Origin: Candidatus Eremiobacteraceae bacterium
Lineage (GTDB): Bacteria; Vulcanimicrobiota; Vulcanimicrobiia; Eremiobacterales; Eremiobacteraceae
Assembly (NCBI GenBank): GCA_036511855.1
Contig: DATCBN010000107.1
Location: 1 to 64,000 of the forward strand
Length of the DNA: 64,000 bases
Reading direction: 5' to 3'
Shown here: in pieces, positions 4,747 to 46,621 of the stretch
How positions within the stretch are numbered: the stretch's first letter is position 1
Layout of the letters: each line of letters begins with the position of its first letter
The notes under the pieces: model-generated
Database searches by the model: none
The model's input: the letters and a program-made list of their open reading frames with translations, nothing else
Told to the model about the DNA's origin: nothing
Position numbers and translations under genes: made by a program

Positions 4747-4803
4747 GCTTTGCGCACCGCAGCGTCACTAGGACGCATTCGCCACCTGAGCGAACCAACG
4801 CGC

Positions 4804-5904
4804 GTGACCGTAGACGCCGACGTAGCGCGGACACCCCTATACGATGTCCACGTCAGCCTGGGTGCAAAAATGTCCCCGTTCGGGGGCTTTCTTATGCCCA
4901 TCTCTTACTCGGGGATCATCGAGGAGCATAACGCCGTTCGCGGAGCGGTCGGTCTCTTCGATCTTTCGCATATGGGCCAGTTCGTCGTCAGGGGCGAGGG
5001 CGCCGCGCGGTGGCTGGATTCGCTGACGTGCAACGACGTCGAGACGATGAAAGCCAATCAAGCCCGCTACAATATCTTCACGAACGATCTCGGCGGCGCG
5101 ATGGACGATGCCATCATCTACCGGCTCGACGGCCGATGGCTAGTCGTCGTCAACGCCTCGAACGCACCGAAGATGTGGGCGGCGCTCTCGAAGAACGTTC
5201 CCGACGGTGTGACGATCGAGAACCGGACACCGCGGTCCGCACTTATCGCGCTGCAGGGGCCGCGATCGTACGAGCTGCTGCAGACATTCACCGGCGTCGA
5301 TCTTTCGGCCATGAAATACTACTACGCCGCTGAAGGCAAGGTCGCCGAAATCCCCGCCGAGATCGCGCGTACGGGCTACACCGGCGAAGACGGCTTCGAA
5401 TTGTTCGTGGCGGCCGATGCCGCGGAAGAATTATGGCAGCGGCTTATGACAGACGCGGGCCGCGTCGGCATGATGCCCGCCGGACTTGGCGCGCGCGACG
5501 TCTTACGGCTTGAGGCCGGGATGCCGCTGTATGGCCACGAGTTGGAAGAAGACATCTCGCCACTTTCAGCGGGGTTGGATTGGGTCGTCAAACTCGGTAA
5601 GCAATTCCGCGGCAGAGACGCACTAGCCGCGCAGGCGGCCGATCAGCTTTACCCTCGCATCGCCGGCATCATCATGGCCGGCCGAGCACCCGCACGCGCG
5701 GGATACCCGGTCTTCCTCGACGGTGTCCGCGTCGGCGAGGTCCGCAGCGGCTCGCCGGCACCCAGCCTAGGGGGCAAGAATATCGGGACGGTGCTCGTCA
5801 CTGCCGAAGCGGCGTCGGCGGGGACGGAATTGGAGGTCGAGATCCGCGGTCAGCGGCACGGCTGCCAGGTGGTGCCCCTTCCATTCTACAAGCGGAAAAA
5901 ATAA
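4804..5904 (+). CDS. gcvT: Glycine cleavage system T protein (aminomethyltransferase)
   Basis: GcvT moves the methylene unit from the aminomethyl-lipoyl arm of GcvH to tetrahydrofolate, releasing ammonia. The 366-aa product shows TPLYDVHVSLGAKMSPFGGF near the N-terminus, LFDLSHMGQ, RYNIF, ARTGYTGEDGFELF and the C-terminal barrel ending GCQVVPLPFYKRKK. The frame is open upstream to a TTG at 4750, but GTG 4804 places the start just before the conserved TPLYDVH, so it is chosen. It leads the gcvT-gcvH-gcvPA-gcvPB cluster. A dihydrolipoamide dehydrogenase is not in the window. Confidence 0.93.
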   Translation: MTVDADVARTPLYDVHVSLGAKMSPFGGFLMPISYSGIIEEHNAVRGAVGLFDLSHMGQFVVRGEGAARWLDSLTCNDVETMKANQARYNIFTNDLGGAMDDAIIYRLDGRWLVVVNASNAPKMWAALSKNVPDGVTIENRTPRSALIALQGPRSYELLQTFTGVDLSAMKYYYAAEGKVAEIPAEIARTGYTGEDGFELFVAADAAEELWQRLMTDAGRVGMMPAGLGARDVLRLEAGMPLYGHELEEDISPLSAGLDWVVKLGKQFRGRDALAAQAADQLYPRIAGIIMAGRAPARAGYPVFLDGVRVGEVRSGSPAPSLGGKNIGTVLVTAEAASAGTELEVEIRGQRHGCQVVPLPFYKRKK

Positions 5905-20825: not shown

Positions 20826-21833
20826 ATGTCTCAACGAGCGTCCGTCGTCTGCACGATGATTCTTATCGCGCTGATTTCCGCAGTTTCCGGATGCTCAAGC
20901 GTCTCGCATCCGACGTTTGCGCTTCCTTCTGGCGCGTCTGGCATTCGAATGACGCCGCAATCCCTCGGGAAGTGGACCACCTTGACACCCATGCCGACGG
21001 CGCGCAGTAGTATAGCGGGAGGTGTCGTCAACCGCATATTTTATGCTGTCGGCGGCCTTAACACAATCCAATCGAATACAGCGTATGATCCTGCGACGAG
21101 TATCTGGACCGTCAAGGTGCCCCTGTCGACGCCGCGCTTGGGCCTAGCAATGGGCGTCATAAATGGCATACTCTATGCTGTCGGGGGCTGCTGTGATATC
21201 AACGGTCAGAGCTTGAACACGGTTGAGGCTCACGATCCTGCAAGTCCTGCGACGGACACTTGGATCACCAAGGCATCGATGCCTACGGCGCGCTTCGGCC
21301 TAGCTGCGGGCGTCGTCAAGGGTATACTATATGCCGTCGGTGGCGCTAACGACATCAACGGCGGCGGCACCTTGAATACGGTTGAGGCCTACGATTCGGC
21401 GACAAACACTTGGACCACCAAGGCATCCATGCCGACGGCGCGCTCCGGTCTTGCAGTGGGCGTCATCAACGGAATACTCTACGCCGTCGGAGGCTGCGAC
21501 AACAACACGACCCAACCTCACAACTTTAATACGGTCGAGGCCTACAATCCTACGACGAATACCTGGACCACCAAGACATCTATGCCGACAGCACGACAGT
21601 ACCCAGCCGTTGGAATCATCAACGGAATACTCTATGCCATCGGCGGCCTCAACGTTTATGACCTGAATACGGTTGAGGCCTACAATCCCGCAACAGACGC
21701 TTGGACCACCAAGGCATCCATGCCGACGGCACGCGACGGCCTAGCTGTAGGCGTCATCGGGCGGAGACTGTACGCTGCCGGCGGCTGGAACGGCGGTAGT
21801 TTGAAAACGTTTGAGGTTTTCGACCCACGATAG
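20826..21833 (+). CDS. Kelch-repeat lipoprotein 1 (six-bladed propeller)
   Basis: The 335-aa product has a signal peptide with lipobox (ISAVSGCSS) and six repeats of about 47 residues. Each follows MPTARxxLAxGVVNGILYAVGG with a Gly-Gly doublet, then TVEAYxPATxTWTTK. This is a Kelch beta-propeller, lipid-anchored outside the cytoplasm, probably for binding proteins or glycans. A ribosome site (GAGGAAG) precedes ATG 20826. It is the first cargo gene right of selC, with a 52-base gap to Kelch gene 2. Repeats are very similar at the DNA level, so recombination between blades and between genes is likely. Confidence 0.9.
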   Translation: MSQRASVVCTMILIALISAVSGCSSVSHPTFALPSGASGIRMTPQSLGKWTTLTPMPTARSSIAGGVVNRIFYAVGGLNTIQSNTAYDPATSIWTVKVPLSTPRLGLAMGVINGILYAVGGCCDINGQSLNTVEAHDPASPATDTWITKASMPTARFGLAAGVVKGILYAVGGANDINGGGTLNTVEAYDSATNTWTTKASMPTARSGLAVGVINGILYAVGGCDNNTTQPHNFNTVEAYNPTTNTWTTKTSMPTARQYPAVGIINGILYAIGGLNVYDLNTVEAYNPATDAWTTKASMPTARDGLAVGVIGRRLYAAGGWNGGSLKTFEVFDPR

Positions 21834-21885
21834 TTGGAAGAGCTCGGCTGTAAGGATTGGCTCATTTCCACGATAGGGGGACATT

Positions 21886-22875
21886 ATGACTTGTCGATTG
21901 TCGATGGCTTGTACGATGATCGCTCTTGGGTTTGTCTCCATTGTTTCAGGCTGCTCGAGCATCTCGAATCCGAACATAGCAACTCACTCTCATGCAGTCG
22001 GCATTCAAAAGACGCCGCAATCGATCGGTAGCTGGGCCACCAAAGCTCCCATGCCGACGGCGCGCGCCTTTCTAGCCGCGGGTGTCGTCAACAGCATACT
22101 CTATGCCGTCGGCGGCATCGGCATTCACAGCGACATCTTGAATACGGTTGAGGCGTACAATCCTGCGACGGACACGTGGACCACCAAGGCATCGATGCCG
22201 ACGGCAAGTTATGGCCACGCTGTGGGAGTCGTTAACGGCATACTCTATGCAGTTGGCGGCTATGATGGTATCCGCTACCTAGATACAGTTGAGGCGTACA
22301 ATCCTACGACGAACACTTGGACGACCAAGGCATCGATGCCGACACCGCGCTATGGCCTAGCTGTAGGAGTCGTTAATGGCATACTCTATGCTGTCGGCGG
22401 TACCGGCATTCACGGCCGCTCGGATATGGTCGAAGGGTACGATCCGGCGACGGATACGTGGACGATCAAGGCATCCATGCCGAAGGCGCGCGAGAACCCA
22501 GCAGCGGGTGTCATCAATGGTATACTTTACGCCGTTGGCGGCTACGCCTACGGCCCCAGGCATGACAATCAGGCTTACAATCCCGCGACAAATACTTGGG
22601 CCGCCAAAGCACTAATGCCGACGGGGCGCTGGGACCTTGCCGCGAGCATCCTCGGGCAGCGTCTTTATGCTGTCGGCGGTTATAATTACACCAATCGCTT
22701 TTCAAATACAGTTGAAGCTTACAATCCTGCGACGGATACCTGGACCACCATGGCACCCATGCCGACGGCGCGGGATGGATTGGCTACGCGTGTGGTCGGG
22801 AACACACTCTATGCCGTCGGCGGCCTTCATAACGGCGGCTACTTGAGTACGGTTGAGGCCTTCACCCCACGCTAG
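21886..22875 (+). CDS. Kelch-repeat lipoprotein 2 (six-bladed propeller)
   Basis: The 329-aa lipoprotein (lipobox SIVSGCSS) has six Kelch blades of the same pattern as its neighbours. Blade five uses the variant LAASILGQRLYAVGG and blade six LATRVVGNTLYAVGG; such variants also end other members. There is no tRNA-Sec half-copy between it and Kelch gene 1, so this cassette carries two genes, or an att copy was lost between them. GGGGGAC precedes the ATG. Confidence 0.9.
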   Translation: MTCRLSMACTMIALGFVSIVSGCSSISNPNIATHSHAVGIQKTPQSIGSWATKAPMPTARAFLAAGVVNSILYAVGGIGIHSDILNTVEAYNPATDTWTTKASMPTASYGHAVGVVNGILYAVGGYDGIRYLDTVEAYNPTTNTWTTKASMPTPRYGLAVGVVNGILYAVGGTGIHGRSDMVEGYDPATDTWTIKASMPKARENPAAGVINGILYAVGGYAYGPRHDNQAYNPATNTWAAKALMPTGRWDLAASILGQRLYAVGGYNYTNRFSNTVEAYNPATDTWTTMAPMPTARDGLATRVVGNTLYAVGGLHNGGYLSTVEAFTPR

Positions 22876-22959
22876 TTACGAGGATACTGCGCCAGACTCA
22901 CTATTAGGTTCTCTTGCAGGGTGCGCGGATATCGAGCAGATCGCAGGTCGGTTGGAAAG

Positions 22960-23225
22960 CTGCTACTGGATTGCTAATCCGACCAGCGATACGCCATGAT
23001 ACTGGATGAGACGAAGTTAGCCAATTCACGCGACAACACGCCACTCAACGATACTTGGTGCTACTGCGCGTCACGAAGCAAGCACAATTTGAAGACCGGC
23101 AGCGGCACCAGCCGCAGACTTCTCCCGTACGTGCGGAAGCGCCCATTTGACGGGGGTTTGCGTGCTTCCCGCGGCGGCACGCAAGGTTCGAGCTCACGCA
23201 ACGTCACAGATAGCGTCCCCGCGGG
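22960..23225. repeat. tRNA-Sec half-copy 1 with flanking arms
   Basis: The core begins at TTTGAAGACCGG (23088), matches the selC 5' half and 5' flank, and continues as a leader (GCAAGGTTCGAGCTCACGC) into Kelch gene 3. To the left lies a conserved flank with GGATTGCTAAT, GCGATACGCCATGATACT and further ATACT words. Sequence left of the core bears no tRNA 3' half. Confidence 0.85.
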
Positions 23226-23269
23226 TATTTTGCCAGGGGTTTGGTTCACATATGATGGGGAGTCACCAC

Positions 23270-24265
23270 ATGTCTCGACGATTGTGCATCGTTTACACGA
23301 TGTTCGTTCTTGCATTTGCGTCGGCCGCCTCCGGATGCTCAAGCGCCTCTGCTCCAACGCCGCTGCCTCACTCTGGCGCGGCTGGCATTCGAGAAATGCC
23401 GCAAGCCAAAGGGAGTTGGACCACCAAGTCACCCATGCCGACCGCGCGCGCCGATCTAGCCGTCGGCGTCGTCAACGGTATCTTGTATGCGGTTGGTGGC
23501 AATTCGCCGTCGTGCGAACCCTTAAGCATTTGCAATACGGTCGAAGCCTATGATCCCTCGAGCGATACCTGGACCACCAAGGCATCGATGCCGACGGCGC
23601 GCGGCTGGTTAGCTATGGGCATCGTCTCCGGCATACTTTATGCCGTCGGCGGAGTTAATAGCTCCAACAGGTACTCAAATGCGGTTGAGGCGTACGATCC
23701 TGCGACGGATACCTGGACCACCAAGGCATCGATGCCGACCGCGCGCTCAAGCCTAGCCGTGGGCGTCGTCAACGGCATACTCTACGCCGTCGGCGGCCAG
23801 CCCGGCTACTTGAAAACGGTTGAGGCGTATAATCCTGCGACGGACACCTGGACCACCGAGGCGTCCATGCCGAACGGACGCTTCGGCCTCGCTGCGAGCG
23901 TCCTCGGGCACAAGCTCTATACGGTCGGAGGCTATAACCACCAAGGCTCGAGGAGCACTGTTCAAGCATATGATCCTACGTCGAATACTTGGACGGGCAG
24001 GGCACACATGCCGACCGCCCGCGCAGAATTGGCTGCGCGCGTAGATAACGGCAGACTTTATGCGATCGGCGGCTCCACAAACGGCTACGACTTCTTGAAT
24101 ACGGTTGAAGCTTACAATCCTGCGACAAACACTTGGACCGCCAAGGCGCCAATGCCGACGCCCCGGGATTTTTTAGCCGCAGGCGTCGTCAACGGCATAC
24201 TCTATGCAGTTGGCGGCTTCGCCGGTGAGACGTTGAGTAGGAATGAGGCCTTCACCCCAAGATAG
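23270..24265 (+). CDS. Kelch-repeat lipoprotein 3 (six-bladed propeller)
   Basis: The 331-aa lipoprotein (lipobox SAASGCSS) has six Kelch blades. ATG 23270 is chosen because GGGGAG precedes it and the signal peptide MSRRLCIVYTMFVLAF follows, nearly the same as in Kelch gene 5; the open frame upstream crosses the tRNA half-copy and is not coding. Blade four (LAASVLGHKLYTVGG) and blade five (LAARVDNGRLYAIGG) are the most divergent. It forms a one-gene cassette between half-copies 1 and 2. Confidence 0.9.
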   Translation: MSRRLCIVYTMFVLAFASAASGCSSASAPTPLPHSGAAGIREMPQAKGSWTTKSPMPTARADLAVGVVNGILYAVGGNSPSCEPLSICNTVEAYDPSSDTWTTKASMPTARGWLAMGIVSGILYAVGGVNSSNRYSNAVEAYDPATDTWTTKASMPTARSSLAVGVVNGILYAVGGQPGYLKTVEAYNPATDTWTTEASMPNGRFGLAASVLGHKLYTVGGYNHQGSRSTVQAYDPTSNTWTGRAHMPTARAELAARVDNGRLYAIGGSTNGYDFLNTVEAYNPATNTWTAKAPMPTPRDFLAAGVVNGILYAVGGFAGETLSRNEAFTPR

Positions 24266-24363
24266 CTGCAATAAATCCCCCAAATCCGATACCGCAGTTT
24301 TCTTGGTAGTGCGGGGGCATCCAGACATTCGGCCGCCGTCGGCGTCTTACGATCGAATGGATG

Positions 24364-24705
24364 GCTGCTAATGGATTGCTAATGCGCTCAGCGGCACGCC
24401 ACGACACTAGATGGGACGAAGCCCGCCAATATACGCGACACCACGCCACTCTGCGATACTCGGCGATACTGCGCATCACGAAGCATACACAATTTGAAGA
24501 CCGGCAGCGGCACCAGCCGCAGACTTCTCCCGTACTCGCGGAAGCGCCCATTTGACGGGGGTTTGAGCCGTTCCCGCGCTCGGCCGAAAGTGGCCGAAAA
24601 GGGCAAGTTGCTAATGGATTGCTAATGCGATGGGTGATACAAGGCGGCACTCCACGATACTGAGCGGCACTTCGATCGCTCGAGCTAAGTCTGCGCTAGT
24701 GTGCG
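24364..24705. repeat. tRNA-Sec half-copy 2 with arms on both sides
   Basis: The core starts at 24493 and runs to about 24575. The left flank (GGATTGCTAATGCG, then several ATACT words) and a right flank (GATTGCTAATGCGATGGGTG, GGCGGCACT, CGATACTGAGCGGCACT) both carry arm-like words. The right flank, including CGATCGCTCGAGC, is shared with half-copy 9 at 40,260. Confidence 0.85.
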
Positions 24706-24826
24706 TTATCCCGGCGTCTCGGGTCCGATTGATCCATGCGACGGTCAAACATGAAGAGCCGGCGGGTCCCCACTCGTCGACCGCGAACCTGTACCGACTG
24801 AGAATCGCTCAGACTGAGGGGCAGCA

Positions 24827-25867
24827 ATGCGTCGTTTCTCTGTTCTCGCCGCCGTTAGCGTAGCGGCAGCGATGGCGCTGCTCCCCGGTTGCTCATCCGG
24901 TACGGCGGTTCCACAGAAACCGCCCACCTTGAGCAGTCACATGCGTTCTTTAGCGAGCTTCATCGCTACGTCTCGGAGCCCCCTCGGTTTGCACGCCGAT
25001 AATCTGAACGCTGGTCATCAGCTCAAATCTTTTTATACGTGCCCCGCGACGATCTCTATCGAGTACTTTTCAGATTACAAGAATAACATCATAAATGTAT
25101 TTGCAGGAAAATTCGAAGGTCAGATCCCGTGTGGCAAGATTACAGACGTAACCAACCCGCAGGGCTTGTATGTAAATGCCTCCACCCACGATCTATACGT
25201 GGCAAACACGGGCGGACACAATGTTCTGGTCTTTCACCGAGGCGAGACTGTCGCATCCAATTCTTATACCGATCCAACCAATCAATTCCCTTATGACGTC
25301 ACGATGGCTAGAGACGGCACCGTTATCGCCAGCAATGTCTTCCAGACGGGCGGTCCCGAGGCAGGCTCCATTTCAACTTGGGTTGGGGGACCGAACGGTG
25401 GTGCATTCGTCGGCAATTTTCCAATGACAAACGACTCCGTAGGCTTATGGATTACCGTCGACAAGCACGGCACCGTTTATTACAATGATATCGATCTTAC
25501 TTCAGGTATCGGTGCGCTCTGGTCTCTAACATGCCCATCCGGTGCGTGCGGCAACCAGACTCAGGTCGCTGGCGTTTCTTTCAGTGCACCCGGTGGCCTT
25601 GCAATTGACCGTACAAACGACTTACTCGCGAACGACGCGCAACCTGGCACAGCCGATACCTTTGAGCTCCCTAATCCAAAACCCAAGACCTTTCCAATCG
25701 CCAGCGGTTCACTTGACCTGGCCATCGATATGCTGAACCGCCATTGGTTCGCTCTCGACAGTCAGAATAGCAACGCCGCAGAATACTTGTACCCGAGCGG
25801 CGTACTCGTTGGCACGGTTTCGTGCGGGACGAACTGCATCGCGAGCGGAATCGCCGTCGATCCCTAG
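24827..25867 (+). CDS. NHL/SMP-30-like beta-propeller lipoprotein
   Basis: The 346-aa lipoprotein has a signal peptide ending LLPGCSS. It contains several strand pairs typical of NHL/SMP-30 propellers: PQGLYVNASTHDLYVANTGG, PYDVTMARDGTVIASNVF, PGGLAIDRTNDLLANDA. This is a surface protein of unknown ligand. GAGGGG precedes the ATG. It is the sole cargo between half-copies 2 and 3, showing that cassettes carry more than Kelch genes. Confidence 0.8.
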   Translation: MRRFSVLAAVSVAAAMALLPGCSSGTAVPQKPPTLSSHMRSLASFIATSRSPLGLHADNLNAGHQLKSFYTCPATISIEYFSDYKNNIINVFAGKFEGQIPCGKITDVTNPQGLYVNASTHDLYVANTGGHNVLVFHRGETVASNSYTDPTNQFPYDVTMARDGTVIASNVFQTGGPEAGSISTWVGGPNGGAFVGNFPMTNDSVGLWITVDKHGTVYYNDIDLTSGIGALWSLTCPSGACGNQTQVAGVSFSAPGGLAIDRTNDLLANDAQPGTADTFELPNPKPKTFPIASGSLDLAIDMLNRHWFALDSQNSNAAEYLYPSGVLVGTVSCGTNCIASGIAVDP

Positions 25868-26125
25868 AGCAATACCAGACGGACGACATTGTTCTTATTG
25901 ACATGCGGGGCGGGTGATTCGCCATCTACCTCGGATTTTATTGCCGCCAAATAATAGCGGCGTCCGCGCAAAGAGCCCAATCGCAGAATAAAGCGATTTG
26001 TACTCTATCGCTGCACTTTGCACACAATCGCGCCGCGATTAGAGAATCCGACGAACCACAAATCCGCATCGAGTGTCTGTGTTCTTGAACAAGTCGACAC
26101 GTTGTGGCGCTCCAGGATTTGCCGC

Positions 26126-26303
26126 GATACGGCCATGCTGAAATTTGAAGACCGGCAGCGGCACCAGCCGCAGACTTCTCCCGAACGTGCGGGAGCGCCC
26201 ATTTGACGGGGGTTTGAGGGGTTCCCGTGGCGGAGTGAATTATGTCGAAAATGGCGAATTGCTAATGGATTGCTAACGCGATACACGATACGCTATGATA
26301 CAG
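26126..26303. repeat. tRNA-Sec half-copy 3
   Basis: The core begins at 26144 (AATTTGAAGACCGG) and includes CACCAGCCGCAGACTTCTCC and the TTTGACGGGGGTTTG flank, ending near 26227. The right flank has GGATTGCTAACGCGATAC followed by two more GATAC words. The left arm region is short or lost. Confidence 0.82.
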
Positions 26304-26345
26304 GGTGCCATTCAACCGTTTTCAACCTACAAATTGAGGAAAAGA

Positions 26346-26672
26346 ATGTTCCGACTTCAGGCTACTTTTCCTGATCTTTGTGACGAGCTGGGGCGCCTAT
26401 TCCTTAAGCTGGGCGAACAACGGCTCGCATCAGAGGTTTCGGCGCTAGAAATCCGAGACCGATGTCGATGCAGCGACGATTTCTGCGCCACGATGTTCGT
26501 TCGGCCTCGACCAAGAAGTGGGGTAGAGGGCCAAACCGGTCGAACCGTCGATATGGAGTCGGAAGATGGATACTTAATCGTGGATATCGTTGACGATCAT
26601 ATCGCCGAAATCGAGATTCTCTATCGAGACGAGGTTCGGTCCCGTCTCAACGAATTGATGCCAATCGTTTAG
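26346..26672 (+). CDS. Small conserved protein with CRC-x-D-D-F-C motif
   Basis: The 108-aa product begins at ATG 26346 after TTGAGGAAAAG; an earlier in-frame start at 26295 lies in the repeat flank. It shows FRLQATFPDLCDELGRLFL, ALEIRDRCRCSDDFCATMFV and YLIVDIVDDHIAEIEILYRD. I recognise this as a family of small uncharacterised bacterial proteins; the Cys cluster may bind metal. Its neighbours say nothing about function. It is the only gene between half-copies 3 and 4. Confidence 0.75.
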   Translation: MFRLQATFPDLCDELGRLFLKLGEQRLASEVSALEIRDRCRCSDDFCATMFVRPRPRSGVEGQTGRTVDMESEDGYLIVDIVDDHIAEIEILYRDEVRSRLNELMPIV

Positions 26673-26683
26673 GTGATCGTGGA

Positions 26684-26855
26684 AAACACCGACATCCCCA
26701 GCCGCAGATTTCTCCCCTACTAGCGGAAGCGCGCATTTGACGGGGGTTTGCGCCGTTCCCGCGCCGGGCGGTAAGGAGCCGCGAATGGCGATTTGCTAAT
26801 GGATTGCTAATGCGACGGGTTGTACCAGACTGCACTAGACGGTACTACCTGGCAT
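26684..26855. repeat. tRNA-Sec half-copy 4 (degenerate)
   Basis: The anticodon-loop part is worn (AAAACACCGACATCCCCAGC), but GCCGCAGATTTCTCCC, CTAGCGGAAGCG and TTTGACGGGGGTTTGCG remain. The right flank reads GCTAATGGATTGCTAATGCG followed by diverged GTACCA/GCACTA/GTACTA words. It is the oldest-looking copy by mismatch. Confidence 0.7.
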
Positions 26856-27066
26856 AACAATCTTAATCCGCGCGGCTATTCAAGACCAGGATTCTTACCT
26901 CGACAGATTCTGCCATGGCCTAGGACACGCCGCGACGCGCTCTTCCAGAGCGACAAGCGTTCCATTTCGTGCTGTCTTCTCGCGCTTGCGAACCGCCTGG
27001 GCGTGTGTTACGCTCGCATCATCCGCGGGTACAAGTGCGCTTGACGCGTTACGAAGAGGTACGAAT

Positions 27067-27456
27067 ATGAAAATACAACTTGGCACGGTTTGGCATTTCA
27101 GTCTTGCCGTCAGAGACCCGGAGAAGCACGCGCACTTTTGGACCAAGAACTTCGATCTGCAGGAAATGTTCCGGTCCGATGAGGCCATCGCGCTGACGAA
27201 CGACGCCATGATCATCGGGTTCTTCAAAGGCACACCACATCCCGACACGATCGACCACATGTCGTTTCACCTCGACGGTATGCGCGCGCTGCGCGAAGCG
27301 CTCGAGACGTTGAAGAAAAACGGCGTAGAACTGGAAGACCCGGGTGACGAGATCGGCCCTACATCGCCGGGCTCGCCGCATTTGGGCCTGTGGTTTCACG
27401 ATCCGGACGGGTATCGCTGGGAGCTCTCGGTTCAGAACGGTGCCCACGAGCGCTAA
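27067..27456 (+). CDS. VOC-family (glyoxalase/dioxygenase-like) protein
   Basis: The 129-aa protein has the VOC pattern: WHFSLAVRDPEKHAHFWTKN, a central DHMSFHLDGM, and the C-terminal HDPDGYRWELSV. The His and Glu positions could bind a divalent metal (His of WHFSL, His of DHMSF, Glu of WELSV). ATG 27067 follows GAAGAGGTACGA. It may be a glyoxalase-like enzyme or resistance-type binding protein; the substrate is unknown. Confidence 0.82.
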   Translation: MKIQLGTVWHFSLAVRDPEKHAHFWTKNFDLQEMFRSDEAIALTNDAMIIGFFKGTPHPDTIDHMSFHLDGMRALREALETLKKNGVELEDPGDEIGPTSPGSPHLGLWFHDPDGYRWELSVQNGAHER

Positions 27457-27639
27457 CCGCGCAGCGCTGCGCTAAGTCCCCTTGCGCTAGATCGTCTCTG
27501 ATCATTCTCGTCACGATGCAACGCGCGGGGAACGGTGGCAGACCAGCCGCTACATATCTCTTGCATAGTTTTTCAGTCGAAACGACGTAATCGGGTTTCC
27601 CCGGTACCTGCGACGAACGCGTGGAACCCATGCGTTGCG

Positions 27640-27777
27640 ACACCATGCATGTCACCCATGCCGACGGCGCGAGGCTACCTAGCTGCAGGCACCATCGGTC
27701 GCAGACTCTACGCAGTCGGCGGCTATGACGACAACTATGTACTTTCGGCTAAGGTTGAGGCCTTCAACCCGCGATAG
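27640..27777 (+). pseudogene. Kelch lipoprotein remnant (last blade only)
   Basis: The stretch reads SPMPTARGYLAAGTIGRRLYAVGG and ends KVEAFNPR, the final Kelch blade and the typical gene end. Signal peptide and earlier blades are missing. It lies directly left of a conserved post-Kelch trailer and the arms of half-copy 5, so it is the tail of a deleted Kelch cassette. Confidence 0.75.
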
Positions 27778-27874
27778 CTTGGAGTCCCCGCCTGAATCCA
27801 CTACTCGTGTGTTGCTGGTGCGGTCCATCCAGATATTTGACCGCCCCGTCGGCTACTTCCGATCGAACGAAAAT

Positions 27875-28137
27875 CTGCTAATGAATTGCTAATGCGATGA
27901 GCGATACGCCATGATACTAGATGAGACGATACCCGCTATTTTACGCGACAACACGCCACTCGGCGATACTCAGTGATACTCGGCGGCACGAAGCATACAC
28001 AATTTGAAGACCGGCAGCGGCACCAGCCGCATACTTCTCCCGTACTAGCGGAAGCGCCCATTTGACGGGGGTTTGCGCCGCTCCCGTGCAGGCATCCAAG
28101 GTTCGAGTTCACCTAACGTCACATATAGCGTCCCCGC
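27875..28137. repeat. tRNA-Sec half-copy 5 with arms
   Basis: The left flank has GCTAATGCGATGAGCGATAC, CCATGATACTAGATGAGACG and three further GATACT words. The core starts at 28003 and passes into a Kelch leader (CCAAGGTTCGAGTTCACCTA, TAGCGTCCCCGCG) like that of selC itself and copy 1. It precedes Kelch gene 4. Confidence 0.86.
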
Positions 28138-28183
28138 GACTTTTTTGGCCGGGACCATGCCTTACGTGATGAGGGGTTACTTT

Positions 28184-29188
28184 ATGGCTCGACGATTGTT
28201 TATCGTTTGCACGGTGATCGCTCTTGCATTTGTGTCGGCCGCGGCCGGATGCGCTAAAGTCTCAAATTCAGCATTGGTCCCTCGTCCTGGCGGAGCTGGC
28301 ATCCAAGAGGCACCGCAATCACTCGGGACCTGGACCACCAAGGCACCCATGCCGACGGCGCGTTATTTGCTTGCTGCGGGCGGCATTAACGGAATACTCT
28401 ATTCCATCGGTGGTAATGACGGCAACAACGGCCTGAAGACGGTTGAGGCCTACGATCCTGCGACGGATACCTGGACCGCTAAGGCATCCATGCCGACAAG
28501 GCGATCTGGATTTGCGGCGAGCGTCCTCAAGCGCAGGCTCTACGCCGTCGGCGGCTTTAAAAATCACATCGGCTTTTTGAACACCGTTGAGGCTTACAAT
28601 CCCGCGACGAGCAAATGGATCGCTAAGGCATCCATGCCGACAGCGCGCGCTGATCTAGCTTCGGGCGTTATCAACGGCATACTCTATACCGTTGGCGGCG
28701 ATAATGGCAATCCCCAAGTGGCCTTGAATACAGTTGAGGCTTATGATCCTGCGACCAATACCTGGGCCACCAAGGCATCCATGCCGACGGCGCGCTCAGG
28801 CTTAGCTTCGGGTGTCATCAACGGCATACTCTATGCCGTCGGCGGCTGGAAAAGCGGCTACCTTACCGCCCTTAATACGGTTGAGGCTTACAATCCTGCG
28901 ACGGATACCTGGACCACGAAAGCGTCCATGCCGACGGCGCGCGGGTGGCTAGCGGCTGGCGTCGTCAACGGTATACTCTATGCGGTCGGCGGCACAAGCA
29001 ACGGCTACCCCTTTAATACAGTTGAGGCTTACGATCCTGCGACTGATGTCTGGAGCGCCAAAACGAACATGCCAACGGCGCGATTCTGGCATGCCGTTGG
29101 CGTCGTCCACGGCATACTCTATGCGGTCGGAGGCTACGATGATAACAACGATATCTTTAATACGGTTGAGGCCTTCAACCCACGATAG
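28184..29188 (+). CDS. Kelch-repeat lipoprotein 4 (six-bladed propeller)
   Basis: The 334-aa lipoprotein (lipobox SAAAGCAK) has six Kelch blades; ATG 28184 follows GAGGGG. Blade one is atypical (LAAGGINGILYSIGG), blade two is the SVLKRRLYAVGG variant. It is a single-gene cassette between half-copies 5 and 6 and the best example of the repeating unit: half-tRNA core, leader, Kelch gene, trailer, arms, next half-tRNA core. Confidence 0.9.
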   Translation: MARRLFIVCTVIALAFVSAAAGCAKVSNSALVPRPGGAGIQEAPQSLGTWTTKAPMPTARYLLAAGGINGILYSIGGNDGNNGLKTVEAYDPATDTWTAKASMPTRRSGFAASVLKRRLYAVGGFKNHIGFLNTVEAYNPATSKWIAKASMPTARADLASGVINGILYTVGGDNGNPQVALNTVEAYDPATNTWATKASMPTARSGLASGVINGILYAVGGWKSGYLTALNTVEAYNPATDTWTTKASMPTARGWLAAGVVNGILYAVGGTSNGYPFNTVEAYDPATDVWSAKTNMPTARFWHAVGVVHGILYAVGGYDDNNDIFNTVEAFNPR

Positions 29189-32998: not shown

Positions 32999-33225
32999 AC
33001 ACCTAAAATTAGTTGCATCGAATCCAAGCGCCCTTGACAGCTCTGACGTGCCGTAGATTCACCCGCCGAATGTATTGAGCGAGGTCCGTCTCACACGGCG
33101 GCGAAACAAGCTTTGTGGCCCAGATTAAGAGGCCAAGCGCCATATGAAGTTGCGCTTTGCAATGTATCAGATCGGCTAAAGTAGGCCGGCCGGATTGTCT
33201 TATCAACATTATAGGGAGTCATGAT

Positions 33226-34227
33226 ATGTCTCGACGATTGTCCATTGTTTGCATGATGATCGTTTTTGCATTCACCTCTGCGGCCGCCGGATGCTCAAGC
33301 ATCTCTAATCCGATTCTGGCGCCTCATTCTGGTGCGGCTGGCCTTCAAAAGGCCCCACAATCCCTCGGATCCTGGACCACGAAAGCACCCATGCCGACGG
33401 CGCGCTTCGAACACGCTGCGGGCGTGGTCAACGGCATACTCTATGCCGTCGGGGGCTGCGATCTTTACACTTGCTCCAACGTGTTGAATACGGTCGACGC
33501 ATACGATGCTGCGACGGATACCTGGACAACCAAGAGCCCCATGCCGACGGCGCGCTACGCACTAGCTGCGGGCGTCGTTAACGGCGTCCTCTACGCCGTG
33601 GGCGGACTGAATAATAACGGCTACTTGAATACAGTTGAGGCCTACGATCCTGCGACGGATAGCTGGACCACCAAGACATCAATGCCGTCGGCGCGTGCGA
33701 CCCTTGGCGTCGGCGTCATCAACGGCATCCTCTATGCCGTCGGCGGCGATAATGGCTTTTTTGGTACGAATGAGGCATATGATCCTGCGACGGATAGGTG
33801 GACAATCAAGGCTCCCATGCCGACGAAGCGCGCCGCCCTAGCTGTTGGGGTCATCGATGGCATACTTTATGCCGTCGGCGGGACTACACCTAACGGCAAT
33901 TTGCACACACTAGAGGCTTACGATCCTGTCACGGATTCCTGGTCCAGTAGGGCAAATATGCCAACGAAGCGATTTGGACTCTCTGTGAGCGTCCTAGGAG
34001 GCAAACTTTATGCGATCGGCGGCTGCTGCAAGAGCAATAACCGAGCCTTGCATACGGTTGAGGCTTACAATCCTGTAACGAACACTTGGACCGCCAAGAC
34101 CCCGATGCCGACGGCGCGCTTCGGATTAGCAACGCGCGTTGTCGGGGGCCTACTCTATGCGGTCGGCGGCGCTGACTCCACTAGCCCCAACCCGTTTAAT
34201 ACGAACGAGGCCTTCACCAAACGATAG
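33226..34227 (+). CDS. Kelch-repeat lipoprotein 5 (six-bladed propeller)
   Basis: The 333-aa lipoprotein (lipobox SAAAGCSS) has six Kelch blades; AGGGAG precedes ATG 33226. Its signal peptide MSRRLSIVCMMIVFAF nearly matches Kelch gene 3. It has two Cys-rich loops (GGCDLYTCSN, GGCCKSNNR) between strands, also seen singly in other members. Unlike genes 3 and 4 it is not immediately preceded by a tRNA half-copy leader; about 500 bases separate it from half-copy 7. Confidence 0.9.
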   Translation: MSRRLSIVCMMIVFAFTSAAAGCSSISNPILAPHSGAAGLQKAPQSLGSWTTKAPMPTARFEHAAGVVNGILYAVGGCDLYTCSNVLNTVDAYDAATDTWTTKSPMPTARYALAAGVVNGVLYAVGGLNNNGYLNTVEAYDPATDSWTTKTSMPSARATLGVGVINGILYAVGGDNGFFGTNEAYDPATDRWTIKAPMPTKRAALAVGVIDGILYAVGGTTPNGNLHTLEAYDPVTDSWSSRANMPTKRFGLSVSVLGGKLYAIGGCCKSNNRALHTVEAYNPVTNTWTAKTPMPTARFGLATRVVGGLLYAVGGADSTSPNPFNTNEAFTKR

Positions 34228-41703: not shown

Positions 41704-41848
41704 CTAGTACACAAATCCGATTGTCGAACTTATATTGTTACCATGTGCTGCGATGCGTCGATTTTACTCGCAGCGCGCGGCGGTTTCTCGGATACGAGCG
41801 GCTGTCTTGCGTCGCCCGTATACTCACTCAAATTCGAAGGTGTATCCA

Positions 41849-42646
41849 ATGCGTATTCTCACACCACTTCAAGCGCTGAGCGCAGCGGCGGCGTTAGCGC
41901 TGCTTGCTGGCTGCTCCGGCGGTTCGGCGATCGCGCCGAACCCGTCCACCCCCCGAGGCTTCATCCCCATGACGATGGGTGGCATAGTTGCCCCTGTGGG
42001 CCAGCTGCCCCAGCCCAACGCGATTATAGCGGATGTGCCCCTTGGATCGGACTCCAGATTTGCGGTGCTGGCCGGCTCCACGGTTACGAACTCCGGTCCA
42101 ACAATAGTGACAAGCAATCTCGGGTTAAGTCCGGGCTCGGCGGTGACCGGATTCCCGCCGGGAATCGTGAAAGACGGAAAGATCCACGCTGGTGATATTC
42201 ACGCGGCGCAGGCTCAACTCGATTTGACCACCGCATACAACAACGCGGCCGGACGAAAGAACCCGACTAAGGTACCCGCTGATATTGGCGGGATGGTAAT
42301 CGGACCTGGCCTTTACAAGGCACCGGTTTCGCTTGCGATCACCGGAAACTTGACCCTCGACGGGCAGAATAAAAAGAACGGCGTCTTCATTTTCCAGGTG
42401 CCATCAACTCTCACTACCTCGGTCAATAGCAGCATCACGCTGATTAACATGGCCAAGCCGTGCCACATTTTCTGGCAGGTCGGCAGCTCGGCAACTCTTA
42501 AAACGGGATCGGTCTTCAAAGGGGTCATTCTGGCGCAGGCATCAATCTCTCTTGGTAAAGGCGTCTCGGTCGAGGATGGAAGACTGTTGGCGCGGTCCGG
42601 TGCGGTAACATTGCTCCGAGACATTGTTACTGAGCCGGGCCCGTAA
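41849..42646 (+). CDS. DUF3494 (ice-binding-like) lipoprotein 1
   Basis: The 265-aa lipoprotein (lipobox LALLAGCSG) carries a full DUF3494 domain: RFAVLAGSTVTNSGPTIVTS, LGLSPGSAVTGFPPG, GLYKAPVSLAITGNLTLDG, NGVFIFQVPSTLTT, IFWQVGSSATLKTGSVFKG. This is a right-handed beta-helix fold known from ice-binding and adhesion proteins. Ice binding is not implied; many members probably act in surface attachment. ATG 41849 is chosen for the signal peptide. A near-duplicate lies at 45515. Confidence 0.9.
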   Translation: MRILTPLQALSAAAALALLAGCSGGSAIAPNPSTPRGFIPMTMGGIVAPVGQLPQPNAIIADVPLGSDSRFAVLAGSTVTNSGPTIVTSNLGLSPGSAVTGFPPGIVKDGKIHAGDIHAAQAQLDLTTAYNNAAGRKNPTKVPADIGGMVIGPGLYKAPVSLAITGNLTLDGQNKKNGVFIFQVPSTLTTSVNSSITLINMAKPCHIFWQVGSSATLKTGSVFKGVILAQASISLGKGVSVEDGRLLARSGAVTLLRDIVTEPGP

Positions 42647-43397
42647 GGAACACACGACGGAAAGTCCAAATGAGCGCGAAGCATTCGCTTAGCGTAATTT
42701 CCTTCGACTAACGAGTCAACCGTTGATTTCCATATCGACACGTGAGGCGGGCGCTGCGGCGTCCGCCCCGTTCGTAAGCGAGGCAGTGAGCAATATCGCT
42801 CCGGCCATCCGCACTGCTAGATCTTCGCGGACTTCGCGATGAGCGCTTGTTTCTTTCCCGGCCTCATCAGTTGGCGCGAACGCGTCAGCATTGCCCGTCG
42901 CTGCGTCCGATTCCAGGTGCAACTCGGTCAAGGTCGAGGTGCAGCACCACTGCAGCGTCAGGTGAAAGGCTGTGAGAAGGCGACGCGGTAAAGCCAGGCC
43001 CACCGCGCGCCAATTTGCATATGTCACCGACATTCGAAGGCCAGCGCCCGCCGCGGCAATACGCCATATAAGTAACGCTCCGCGGCGATCAGCGGGTCTA
43101 GGTGGGGGGTTTATCGGCTCGGCGCACGTATGGTCTGGGTCGTCCCCGTCTTCTTATTATGCGTTAGCGGCAATAGGCCCACTTCATGGACAAGAGAGCG
43201 GCCAGGAACTAACGCAGAAACGAGATCGGCGGATGGATATTAGCGGCGTTTGGAACCGCGCTCCTTAGAGTGCGCGGCGGTTGGGCAACACGACATGAAT
43301 CACCGCAGTTCGCGAAGGCCGTGAAGAACGCGGATGGAAGCTGCCAACATACAGGTCTCGTCGGTAAGCCCTAAGCGGTTCGAAAGGAACCAAAACG
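42647..43397. other. Gap with duplicated trailer and possible minus-strand small ORF
   Basis: The first 200 bases repeat after the second DUF3494 gene (46331-46515). On the minus strand both encode a similar peptide (REDLAVRMAGAILLTASLTN, then VDMEI here). In this copy the frame extends to 105 aa (42716-43033); in the other it is short. A related REDLxVRM word occurs near 36100. I cannot decide whether this is a real gene family. The rest shows nothing. Confidence 0.4.
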
Positions 43398-43568
43398 ATG
43401 ACTAAGGGGATATACTACCATACCAATTCTGTGGATTATCCGCCGAAGCATAGAAACGTACATCACGATCACGAGAATTGCCTCGACGGTAAGCGCATCG
43501 AACTGAAACATCGAGAAGGTGGAACCGGCGGTAAGCCGCTGTGCAAGGCGTGCGAGAAGCTCGGTTAG
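43398..43568 (+). CDS. 56-aa putative zinc-binding protein, paralogue 1
   Basis: ATG 43398 follows AAAGGAACC. The product reads MTKGIYYHTNSVDYPPKHRN, then VHHDHENCLDGKRIELKHRE and ends PLCKACEKLG. A His/Cys group (HHDHENC) and a C-terminal CxxC could bind one zinc. The same length and pattern occur in the product of 44727-44897. It leads a run of three small genes. No named family recognised. Confidence 0.7.
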   Translation: MTKGIYYHTNSVDYPPKHRNVHHDHENCLDGKRIELKHREGGTGGKPLCKACEKLG

Positions 43569-43616
43569 AGGAGTCTGTTCCGAATCGTTATTTCCATATA
43601 CGAAGGTAACAAGAAC

Positions 43617-43841
43617 GTGATTCGCTATCTGAAACAGACTCTGGTCGAAAAATTAGGCGAGGCCACGGAATTCAACGTTTCCGAGGACGTCAGCGACGGC
43701 GCTGGGAATATGCCGACCGTGTCCATGAAAAGATACCACCTGAAATGGGGTTGCGGACGCCACTCCGGTTCACCCAATCCGGATGACGTTTATCAAATGC
43801 ATGACATCTGCCCGGGCCATGTCGGCGTCGTCTCGACCTAA
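43617..43841 (+). CDS. 74-aa hypothetical protein
   Basis: A GTG start at 43617 gives MIRYLKQTLVEKLGEATEFN, with WGCGRHSG and MHDICPGHVGVVST later; two Cys/His pairs could bind metal. It lies 48 bases after the first zinc-type small gene and 36 before the next, suggesting one transcript. No family recognised. Confidence 0.55.
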   Translation: MIRYLKQTLVEKLGEATEFNVSEDVSDGAGNMPTVSMKRYHLKWGCGRHSGSPNPDDVYQMHDICPGHVGVVST

Positions 43842-43877
43842 CGACGTACTCCAAAGCTCAGAGCCGGGGGACCGCTC

Positions 43878-44168
43878 GTGACGACCATTGACTTCGTGGA
43901 ATGGTTAGACTTGGTTTGTGACGCGCTAGAGAGTCACGTGAATATACTCGGAGGATGGAACCCCCGCACGATGGTCTACCACACTGCGGTCGGAATTCTA
44001 TTCTTCTTCGAGCAGGAAGGCGACAAGGTTCGCGTCCGGTTCAGAGATGAAACTCGCCAGTCAGCCAACATGGCTATCGAGATTGACCGCGCTAAAAAGC
44101 CAGCAGATGCGGCTGCGGACATCGCACAGGGCATGCGCGTGTTCGTGAGCAGCCTTAACAAAAACTAA
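43878..44168 (+). CDS. 96-aa hypothetical protein
   Basis: The GTG start at 43878 gives MTTIDFVEWLDLVCDALESH, then GILFFFEQEGDKVRVRFRDE and a helical C-terminus (ADIAQGMRVFVSSLNKN). An alpha-beta-alpha pattern of a soluble protein. It closes the three-gene run and is followed by a hairpin at 44195. No family recognised. Confidence 0.6.
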   Translation: MTTIDFVEWLDLVCDALESHVNILGGWNPRTMVYHTAVGILFFFEQEGDKVRVRFRDETRQSANMAIEIDRAKKPADAAADIAQGMRVFVSSLNKN

Positions 44169-44194
44169 CGAGCCTTGTGGACGTTTCCAATGAG

Positions 44195-44223
44195 AAGGGC
44201 GGCGACTTCGTGTCATCGCCCTT
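44195..44223 (+). terminator. Hairpin after the small-gene run
   Basis: AAGGGCG pairs with CGCCCTT. A similar hairpin (AGGGCGA...TCGCCCT) stands at 44560-44588. Neither has a strong T-tract; the likeness suggests duplication of small-gene modules. Confidence 0.5.
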
Positions 44224-44559
44224 GGGGTGTTGTGGTCTGTGGCTCTAGATGCGCGGTTCAAGAGAACAGTTTGTAGTGTTGCACTCCGCAAGTGTCAATA
44301 TAGAGCAGACCTGACGAATCGATGTCTGCCGTCACGCAACCGCACCTGAATCGGAGCGGCGCGCGATTTCGCGGGGCACAACCACGACGACTCCGCCACC
44401 CAGTGCCGGCGGAAACTTCGGTATAGGTGAGTTGGGCCATGTAAAACGACATTGAGTGGGGCTTCTCCGAGCGCTTACCCACGTTCAGCGATCTTCCGTT
44501 GAGCGCGTTGGCGCTTATTCGCGGCGCTCGAGCATGACATCGTGCTCTCCAAAGATGAT

Positions 44560-44588
44560 AGGGCGACGACCTTGCCGGTCATCGCCCT
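44560..44588 (+). terminator. Second hairpin of the same type
   Basis: AGGGCGACGACC and its near-complement CGGTCATCGCCCT surround a TTGC loop, 140 bases before the second zinc-type small gene. It may end a lost upstream gene. Confidence 0.45.
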
Positions 44589-44726
44589 TCGCCCTGATCT
44601 ATGGCGGCGTTAGATAATGTCATTGTAGCACTTTGATGCGGTTAGCGGCGCTTCCAGGAGAGTATCGTCTTCGAATCACGAACATGTTTGATGCGTCAAT
44701 TGGCGCAGAAACTTGGAGGAACGTAA

Positions 44727-44897
44727 ATGTCTAGGGTTCCCTACTTCTACTCGATCAATGAGGGAATGAAACCAAAAGCCGATCGCGTCTATCACAACAA
44801 CAATACGTGTCCTCCTGGTCTTGACATACCGAAGAACGAGCGGCGGAGGGGCAAGAACGAGTATCGACCGTGCAAAGACTGCGCAGGGCGCGACTAA
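44727..44897 (+). CDS. 56-aa putative zinc-binding protein, paralogue 2
   Basis: ATG 44727 follows a strong GGAGGA site. The product reads MSRVPYFYSINEGMKPKADR, then VYHNNNTCPPGLDIPKNERR and ends PCKDCAGRD. Like paralogue 1 it has exactly 56 aa, an xHxxNxC group in the first half and a final CxxC; the region between is basic. The pair supports each other as real genes although both are short. Confidence 0.7.
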   Translation: MSRVPYFYSINEGMKPKADRVYHNNNTCPPGLDIPKNERRRGKNEYRPCKDCAGRD

Positions 44898-45514
44898 CGC
44901 CTACGGTCAGAAGGGGTAGCGGCATCGTAGAGCGGCTCCTGATGGCGCCGCTCAAATTTATTACCAAGCCCAGCTGGTGGTATCAGGCGACACGCCATGA
45001 CACTCATCGTGGGAGCCGAACGGCGACAACGTCTTGACGTGCCTTTTCACCTCATTGAAAATGAGCACACTTGCATCTTTACACGCAAAGCGGTAGTTGG
45101 GGGTCTCGGCGATTTGAAATTATTGCGATAATGATTACGACGGAAGCTGTAGCCTCTGCACACAAAGCGGCGTCGCGAAACGTCGCCGTTCGGTTGTGCT
45201 GAAAGGCATTGGCGAGCGCGAGCGCCGCACCAGCATGTCGCCGAACGGCTTCGAACGAGCCGCCACTGTGACGGCTGGGATCGAACCCATTGAACGGTGG
45301 CATTGGCCCCGTAAACGGAGGTCCTATTCCGTTCGTGCACCACGCCACATAACCGTATCGCATATGAGCTAGGGGCCCGCATCCTACTATAGAAGTAGCA
45401 TTGTTACCATTGGCTGCGGCGCGTCGATTGTACTCGCAGCACGTGGCGATTTCTCATATACGAGCGCCTGTATTGCTTTGCTCGTTTACTCACTCAAATT
45501 CGAAGGTGTATCCA
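44898..45514. other. Gap with duplicated leader of the DUF3494 gene
   Basis: The last 115 bases (45401-45514) match the leader of the first DUF3494 gene (41735-41848), including GTTACCAT, CTGCGGCGCGTCGATTGTAC and the shared ACTCACTCAAATTCGAAGG before the start. A minus-strand frame at 45079-45363 is not recognisable. A short arm-like word (TATCAGGCGACACGCCATGA) lies near 44980. Confidence 0.4.
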
Positions 45515-46330
45515 ATGCGTATTCTCACACCACTTCAAGCGCTGAGCGCAGCGGCTGCGTTAACGCTGCTTGCCGGCTGCTCCGGCGGTTCGGCAATTGC
45601 GCCGAAGCCGTTCACTCTCCAAGGCCACGAGCACACGACGATGGGCCGCACAGTTGCCGCTGTGGGCCCGATGGCCCAGCTCACGGCAGCCGTCAATCCT
45701 GATAGGGCGATAAAGCGAGTGCCACTTGGATCGGCCGCAAAATTTGCGGTGCTGGCCGCCGACACCGTCACCAACGCCGGTCCGACCATCGTGGCCGGCG
45801 ATCTCGGCGTGAGTCCGGGCTCGACGGTGACCGGATTCCCGCCGGGAAAAGTGATCGACGGTTCGATACATGCCGGTGATCCTGTCGCGGCGCGAGCTCA
45901 TCGCGATTTGACCACCGCGTACAACAATGCGGCCGGACGAAAGAACCCGACCATGGTGCCCGCCGATATCGGCGGCATGACCCTCCGGCCCGGCCTCTAC
46001 AAAGCGCCGGTGTCACTGGCGATCACTGGGAACGTCACGCTAGATGGTCACAACGACTCCGACAGCGTCTTTATCTTCCAGGTGCCGTCCACCCTGACGA
46101 CGTCGGTCAATAGTAGCGTCACGCTGATCAACCGCGCCAAAGCGCGCAACATCTTCTGGCAGGTCGGCAGCTCGGCAACCCTTAAGACGGGGTCGATTTT
46201 CAAAGGGGTCATTCTGGCGCACGCATCGATTTCTCTGGGTAGAGGCGCCACGGTGGTGAATGGGAGATTGTTGGCGCGGATCGGTGCAGTAACATTACTC
46301 CGTAATACAGTTACCGAGCCCGACCCGTAA
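45515..46330 (+). CDS. DUF3494 (ice-binding-like) lipoprotein 2
   Basis: The 271-aa lipoprotein shares its first 16 residues (MRILTPLQALSAAAAL) and lipobox with the first copy and most of the DUF3494 domain: AKFAVLAADTVTNAGPTIVA, LGVSPGSTVTGFPPGK, GLYKAPVSLAITGNVTLDG, VFIFQVPSTLTT, IFWQVGSSATLKTGSIFKG. Differences cluster in the linker after the lipobox, where seven residues are inserted. Same inferred surface role as copy 1. Confidence 0.9.
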   Translation: MRILTPLQALSAAAALTLLAGCSGGSAIAPKPFTLQGHEHTTMGRTVAAVGPMAQLTAAVNPDRAIKRVPLGSAAKFAVLAADTVTNAGPTIVAGDLGVSPGSTVTGFPPGKVIDGSIHAGDPVAARAHRDLTTAYNNAAGRKNPTMVPADIGGMTLRPGLYKAPVSLAITGNVTLDGHNDSDSVFIFQVPSTLTTSVNSSVTLINRAKARNIFWQVGSSATLKTGSIFKGVILAHASISLGRGATVVNGRLLARIGAVTLLRNTVTEPDP

Positions 46331-46621
46331 GAAACAGACGACGGCAGAGTCCAAACGAGCGCGTAGAGTTGCTTAGAGTAACTTCCTTCGACTAGCCAGC
46401 CAACAGTCGATTTCCATATCAACATGCGGGGCGGGCGCAACGGCGTCCGCCTCAGTTGTAAACGAGGCAGTGAGCGGAGTTGCCATGGCCATTCGCATTG
46501 CTAGATCTTCGCGTACTTAGCGATGGGCTCTCGTTTCTTTCTGTATGATGTGTATTTTTCGCAGGGTAAGAAAAAAGTGCCACACTTCAAATATCTAATT
46601 TAACGAGCAGTAACCTCGCCA
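46331..46621. other. Duplicated trailer, otherwise noncoding
   Basis: About 185 bases repeat the trailer after the first DUF3494 gene (ACTTCCTTCGACTA, GTCGATTTCCATATC on the plus strand). No intact gene. Confidence 0.45.

Follow-up and report, generated by a model that had tools for sequence, protein, structure and literature searches.

The N-terminal metal-binding domain of Ada carries four cysteines and lies within a longer protein, and in true Ada domains the cysteine that acts as the first ligand is the methyl acceptor. The DksA/TraR proteins combine a C4 finger with a helical body. According to the title of a paper on this group, small zinc proteins of the DksA/TraR type reprogram host transcription (PMC9239242). 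Single zinc finger micro-proteins of less than 70 amino acids from haloarchaea are expected to complex zinc (PMC10716476). In Haloferax tailed virus 1 (HFTV1), annotated small zinc proteins (gp04 and gp08-gp11) are encoded between the terminase and portal genes (L252:2053-3793).

The two mini-genes W1 and W2 described here encode members of one unnamed family of stand-alone mini-proteins of about 48-65 amino acids. By predicted fold, the nearest named zinc module is the Ada N-terminal domain (PF02805), which likewise has a C-terminal CxxC with two ligands upstream. The mini-proteins differ from Ada in that the predicted site is of the His-Cys3 type and is contained in a single free domain.

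Two mini-genes in the window

The window, i.e. the whole analyzed stretch of 64,000 nucleotides from a Candidatus Eremiobacteraceae bacterium (GCA_036511855.1, contig DATCBN010000107.1, positions 1 to 64,000), contains W1 at 43398..43568 and W2 at 44727..44897. Both are on the plus strand and both encode exactly 56 amino acids, as the original prediction had stated. Both are supported by the ORF list, tblastn, profile matching and the tree, W2 also by dN/dS analysis and AlphaFold2 modeling. Their claimed location between DUF3494 copies agrees with the PF11999 matches on either side (E 1.4e-60 and 1.9e-63). Good ribosome sites had been claimed for both genes. This is correct for W2, which is preceded on the same strand by a clear GGAGG site at 44709..44726 (TTGGAGGAACGTAA-ATG), whereas the site of W1 is weaker (AAAGGAACCAAAACG-ATG) and consists of a moderate ribosome-site-like stretch, AAAGGAAC, at 43380..43397 of the plus strand. 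A scan for promoters and terminators gave no clear excess over shuffled sequences, and the plus strand 5' of W1 and W2 was without a site.

The anticipated terminal CxxC is found near the end of both proteins as C49-x-x-C52, and the motif common to W1 and W2 is H23-x4-C28 ... C49-x2-C52. An H-x-x-N-x-C group, also claimed for both, is present in W2 as HNNNTC and absent from W1, which has HDHENC instead. When all six-frame stop-to-stop frames of the window were searched for [HC]-x4-C...C-x2-C with the CxxC at most 12 residues from the end, only W1 and W2 were found; a looser pattern, allowed anywhere in the frame, also matched two unrelated frames. The subfamily of W1 has the signature YHT...PPKHRNVHHDH..C..GKRI and that of W2 the signature FYSINE..KP...RVYHNN..CPPGRDIP..ER. 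With GC contents of 0.51 (W1) and 0.52 (W2) the mini-genes are AT-richer than the window (0.586), and the net charges of the proteins are +3 and +5, respectively.

Two further plus-strand ORFs lie between W1 and W2, at 43617-43841 and 43878-44168 (74 and 96 amino acids). These may form one small gene cluster with W1 and W2; the other fetched loci gave no relative of either, and Pfam gave nothing above cut-off. At 20826-29188 and 33157-34227 of the window, several similar lipoprotein-like genes, whose shared start motifs end in GCSS or GCAK, were noticed by eye.

That W1 and W2 are functionless ORFs that arose by chance would fit their short length, the lack of a Pfam family and the existence of decayed copies. 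However, a homology search, proposed with the original prediction and run here with tblastn, showed that each ORF alone matches other genomes. Outside the genome to which the window belongs (G000), W2 has its best match in G032 (E 5.7e-19), and W1 matches G004 (E 3.8e-15) and G049 (E 5.6e-11). At E <= 0.001, W2 alone detected 8 and W1 alone 7 of 61 genomes, G000 included; at E <= 1 the two queries matched 35 of the 61, most of these matches being weak and probably due to chance. MAGs labelled as other phyla contain members at E 7e-18 to 1e-13, values that are relative to the candidates only.

Selection also speaks against chance ORFs. Pairwise dN/dS was determined for pairs with more than 62% identity, a limit above which W1 had no relative, and many pairs were saturated at synonymous sites. 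Where dS was measurable the ratio was mostly 0.04-0.2, with low values for W2/L084 (0.15), two G032 copies (0.08), L107/L108 (0.11) and L114/L121 (0.04), and weaker constraint for L103/L104 (0.60), L105/L106 (0.39), L122/L133 (0.30) and L082/L115 (0.23). Judged by these ratios, most measurable close pairs are under purifying selection. The original prediction named a lack of homologues together with ratios near one as the outcome that would count against it. Because homologues exist and selection is mostly purifying, it withstands this test, and its view of W1 and W2 as real genes that are easily missed is borne out: on the sequence evidence both are genes. The chance-ORF explanation, already contradicted by homology and selection, has a negligible probability.

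Invariant residues and predicted fold

In 36 of 36 selected intact members, W1 and W2 among them, seven positions do not vary: H23, C28, G31, I34, G42, C49 and C52. The predicted ligands in both proteins are H23, C28, C49 and C52. In a larger set of 90 distinct members found with a profile score of at least 40 bits, H-x4/5-C...C-x2-C is kept in 85 (L179 only through a dubious match), a count that is not independent of the profile because the profile itself favours the motif. The remaining five members are decayed, truncated or frame-broken.

The AlphaFold2 model of W2, calculated with a 35-row alignment, has a mean pLDDT of 85.5 and a pTM of 0.61. Its strands span residues 3-9, 21-25 and 39-41, a helix at 50-55 lies at the C-terminus, and no helix is longer than six residues. 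A sequence search of solved structures gave nothing convincing (best E 0.34), and a fold search of the PDB with the model gave no convincing match. In the BFVD the first Foldseek match is an 'Ada-like Zn-binding domain protein' of HFTV1 (probability 0.98, TM 0.61, E 0.045), and a 'Metal binding domain of Ada' protein follows further down at E 0.97; no match in this database reaches E 0.001. This HFTV1 protein, gp09, aligns with the mini-protein family at all four ligands, and the profile comparison with it is weak (probability 11.7%, E 0.0026).

In view of the Ada-named fold matches, the mini-proteins could be small Ada-type sensors or repairers of methylated DNA phosphates. This is highly improbable, since a histidine replaces the methyl-accepting cysteine as the first ligand in 36 of 36 family rows, whereas a cysteine is found there in seven of seven Ada domains of relatives. 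Profile comparison with the true Ada domains of relatives fails as well (hhalign probability 5% over 16 columns), and family members gave no profile match to Ada_Zn_binding, PF02805. With the acceptor cysteine absent and the profiles failing, membership of the Ada family was rejected.

A different role for the C-terminal CxxC would be that of a disulfide pair in a redox protein, with the histidine and the first cysteine not acting as metal ligands. Thiol-redox proteins can also have a CxxC where a helix begins, and the model has a helix at 50-55. Yet the CxxC shares its invariance with H23 and C28, and the listed fold matches contain no thioredoxin-like protein, which makes a redox function improbable.

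The invariance and the predicted fold suggest that a single zinc ion is most likely coordinated by His23, Cys28, Cys49 and Cys52 and would tie the N-terminal strands to the short C-terminal helix in an Ada-like module. With moderate confidence, the protein would function in the manner of such a module. The plausibility of zinc binding, raised in the original prediction, is supported indirectly by the four invariant ligand-type residues and by the weak Ada-like fold match. Of 82 members, about 87% carry a positive net charge; the median is +3 and the range -5 to +10. Such a mostly basic platform would most likely bind and modulate nucleic acid or a nucleic-acid-handling protein. The mostly positive charge points in this direction, that of the nucleic-acid or protein contact which the original prediction held plausible, and values down to -5 in some members speak against it. 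This predicted binding is the weakest step of the explanation and is held tentatively, at a little under even confidence.

Distribution and mobile setting

W1 and W2 had been described as paralogues. They are indeed homologous, though distantly, but they belong to different subfamilies and did not arise by local duplication. The two proteins are 25-27% identical and match each other alone at E 0.24-0.36; a profile including both ORFs joins them, with E 6.8e-20 for W2 and 2.2e-18 for W1, both being themselves rows of that profile. In a tree of 47 rows, which has few columns and long branches, they group together in 0% of 200 bootstrap trees. W1 is placed with G004 and G123. The rows placed with W2 are G119, G032, one viral contig and two Acidobacteriota MAGs. 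G119 too has one member on each side of the tree. The separate positions, together with the two members of G119, suggest that W1 and W2 are separate acquisitions or an old pair rather than local copies.

The surrounding DUF3494 (Ice_binding) genes are part of a diverged direct repeat, detected by repeat comparison and Pfam PF11999, with a left copy at 41715..42857 and a right copy, holding the second DUF3494 gene, at 45381..46541, both on the plus strand. The copies share 79-84% identity over the listed pieces (D1-D3). Because the repeat units exclude the mini-genes and the tree separates W1 from W2, a local duplication of the mini-genes along with the DUF3494 repeat was rejected. A third similar DUF3494 gene is located on the same contig at 66815-67588 (G000:C107), and none of six searched genomes that share its genus or family, including both congeners, gave a DUF3494 protein match at E 1e-10.

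Within the phylum, the profile with both ORFs found members in 14 of 149 genomes, G000 included; neither of the two congeners gave a match at E 0.001. Seven loci with members were obtained from the genome_contigs set. Among them, two Candidatus Eremiobacterota MAGs have complete copies and a third has a fragment; the rest carry the labels Acidobacteria, Edaphobacter, Alphaproteobacteria and Deltaproteobacteria. Plasmids of Bradyrhizobium, Mesorhizobium, Rhodococcus, Curtobacterium, Dietzia and Arthrobacter carry members, with a weak one in Hymenobacter, and viral contigs gave many matches. The rates for Alphaproteobacteria (4 of 289 genomes with a match) and Acidobacteriota (4 of 297) are rough, because each count takes in one genome that was selected for its known member and only 22-23 candidates were scored in most of the genomes listed. 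With W2 and the Bradyrhizobium member as queries, tblastn gave no match among the annotated phages of INPHARED, and W1 as query found no relative in the viral contigs. Members that look W1-like by eye surfaced in the partner search described below (L219 and L228, and L196, which is not tail-to-tail).

Several candidate matches were discarded. The match on a Serratia plasmid is part of a long membrane-like ORF and is without the cysteines, that of L098 sits within a terminase-like protein, and the Shinella matches are located in transporter genes. An apparent 'GIY-YIG' fusion in Dietzia was rejected, since the feature under the match reads in another frame and there is therefore no fusion.

Decayed members, in which ligands are lost, the protein is truncated or the frame is changed, were observed at L069 (G023), L073/L090 (G024), L100 (a Bradyrhizobium plasmid), L136 and L167. 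Seven matching copies are present in G055, two of which, found by profile match at 4762-4911 and 5211-5354 of L072 (G055:C35), stand side by side at a contig end. Some plasmid copies are without a listed gene, in a gene table that is incomplete.

Of ten proteins chosen among the neighbours of the zinc gene in viral contigs, seven were named by PHROGs (head protease, endolysin, terminase small subunit, portal, scaffold, DNA methyltransferase and major head protein) and three had no match. No phage or integrase gene was recognised by eye beside W1 and W2 in the ORF list of the window. The patchy presence of the family and the decayed copies are consistent with mobile accessory cargo. In view of the patchiness, the tree and the decay, the family would travel in this way with mobile DNA such as phages and plasmids, and its two subfamilies would be present in this lineage through separate acquisition or as an old pair.

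The joint reading, i.e. a family of stand-alone zinc mini-proteins with an Ada-like module that moves as cargo and contacts nucleic acid or a nucleic-acid-handling protein, is the one we favour, with somewhat better than even confidence. W1 and W2 are probably solo zinc-binding accessory proteins, predicted to touch nucleic acid or a nucleic-acid enzyme.

The convergent partner and known systems

In many viral contigs the zinc gene lies tail-to-tail with a gene of a second unnamed family, encoding a protein of about 110 amino acids with the consensus GIETxESCEGGxGHxFPEPTVRFxG...LRRxW...GELxGPxWE. The window copies are without this partner. Partner-bearing loci are L107, L108, L110, L112, L115, L122, L127, L133, L135, L091, L096, L097 and many of L178-L240. 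Clustering of neighbours placed the partner in 13 loci, against three for the next non-overlapping neighbour. By profile search it was detected at 22 of 74 distinct zinc loci, with convergent orientation in all 22. Six of these do not come from viral contigs but from a Mesorhizobium plasmid, from MAGs of Edaphobacter and Alphaproteobacteria, and from G123, G119 and G495. The copy of the Alphaproteobacteria MAG is split between two frames.

Used alone against the viral contigs, the partner profile found 63 loci, 35 of which have a zinc gene, convergent in 34; this search is not fully blind because the profile was built from copies beside zinc genes. After removal of 15 contigs already known from the zinc queries, which were recognised by contig names, 19 of 48 loci have convergent pairs and one has a non-convergent neighbour. 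Among the 28 partner loci with no zinc match, three have less than 320 bp of sequence on that side. The spacing of convergent pairs ranges from an overlap of 51 bp to a distance of 53 bp. For 40 distinct pairs the median is a 4-base overlap, which is found exactly in 11, and the protein distances of zinc gene and partner correlate (Mantel r 0.32, with 2 of 2000 permutations as high).

The zinc protein could accordingly be seen as half of an undescribed two-gene module, for example for counter-defence or superinfection exclusion or as a toxin-antitoxin-like pair. The window copies would then be solo derivatives, or relics of which the ancestral function needs the partner. The convergence at all 22 zinc loci and in 34 of the 35 pairs of the reciprocal search, the co-divergence of the 40 pairs and the rank of the partner as the most recurrent neighbour argue for such a module. 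However, 52 of the 74 zinc loci, including W1 and W2, have no partner (some lack sequence), the origin of the profile makes the search lean toward zinc genes, and the correlation of distances is modest. The best match of the partner in the window is at E 0.26, and a search of G000 at E 0.01 did not find the partner. Among 61 relatives one marginal match was found, yet the class members G119 and G123 have the partner. Pfam and PADLOC gave no match to the partner, and its best PHROG match (E 0.015) is not convincing. The predicted fold of the partner is generic alpha/beta (pLDDT 85.6). Its best VIA match is a type II secretion periplasmic domain with Z 7.3, which the tool rates as ordinary, and no function was assigned from it.

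This two-gene reading, with W1 and W2 as derivatives or relics, is rather unlikely, and the reading of W1 and W2 as solo accessory proteins is retained. A broader proposal is that the zinc gene and its convergent partner form an undescribed mobile two-gene system, with genes that often overlap at their ends and spread by phages over several bacterial phyla, of which the window retains the zinc half alone, as two subfamilies in a bacterial chromosome. We consider this possible, at clearly less than even confidence. The tight convergent link provides a handle on function, and the pair is testable in laboratory phages.

The libraries of described families offer few points of contact. In Pfam the best single-member matches have E 0.052 (GATA, one of 13 members) and 0.053 (one of 36), with no family match. 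The lowest NCBIfam value comes from one of 36 members that weakly matched the DksA/TraR profile PRK11019 (E 0.013 only), and in PHROG one member matched phrog_19181, for which no function is named, at E 0.002; neither was counted as a family match. A conserved zinc family known from dozens of viral contigs and from several phyla thus has no convincingly fitting Pfam, NCBIfam or PHROGs model, and because of its small size it is readily missed in gene lists. At abstract level, the literature gave no description of the zinc family or of the zinc-partner pair.

Like the mini-proteins, DksA/TraR-type zinc proteins are tiny and are found on plasmids and phages (PMC9239242). The mini-proteins differ from them by the His-Cys3 pattern and by a model in which no helix exceeds six residues. 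The haloarchaeal micro-proteins have two C(P)XCG motifs (PMC10716476), whereas the family of W1 and W2 has one H-x4-C and one CxxC. HFTV1 gp08 and gp09 (QAS68841, QAS68842) are likewise small stand-alone proteins, of viral origin and with VYH-x4-C ... C-x2-C. They belong to an archaeal virus, and the aligned HFTV1 protein shares 14-24% identity with six family rows and is without the GNNIE/GTGG core of the zinc family. Phages and plasmids are known to carry small zinc proteins, and the family of W1 and W2 with its convergent partner appears to be a previously undescribed form of this kind.
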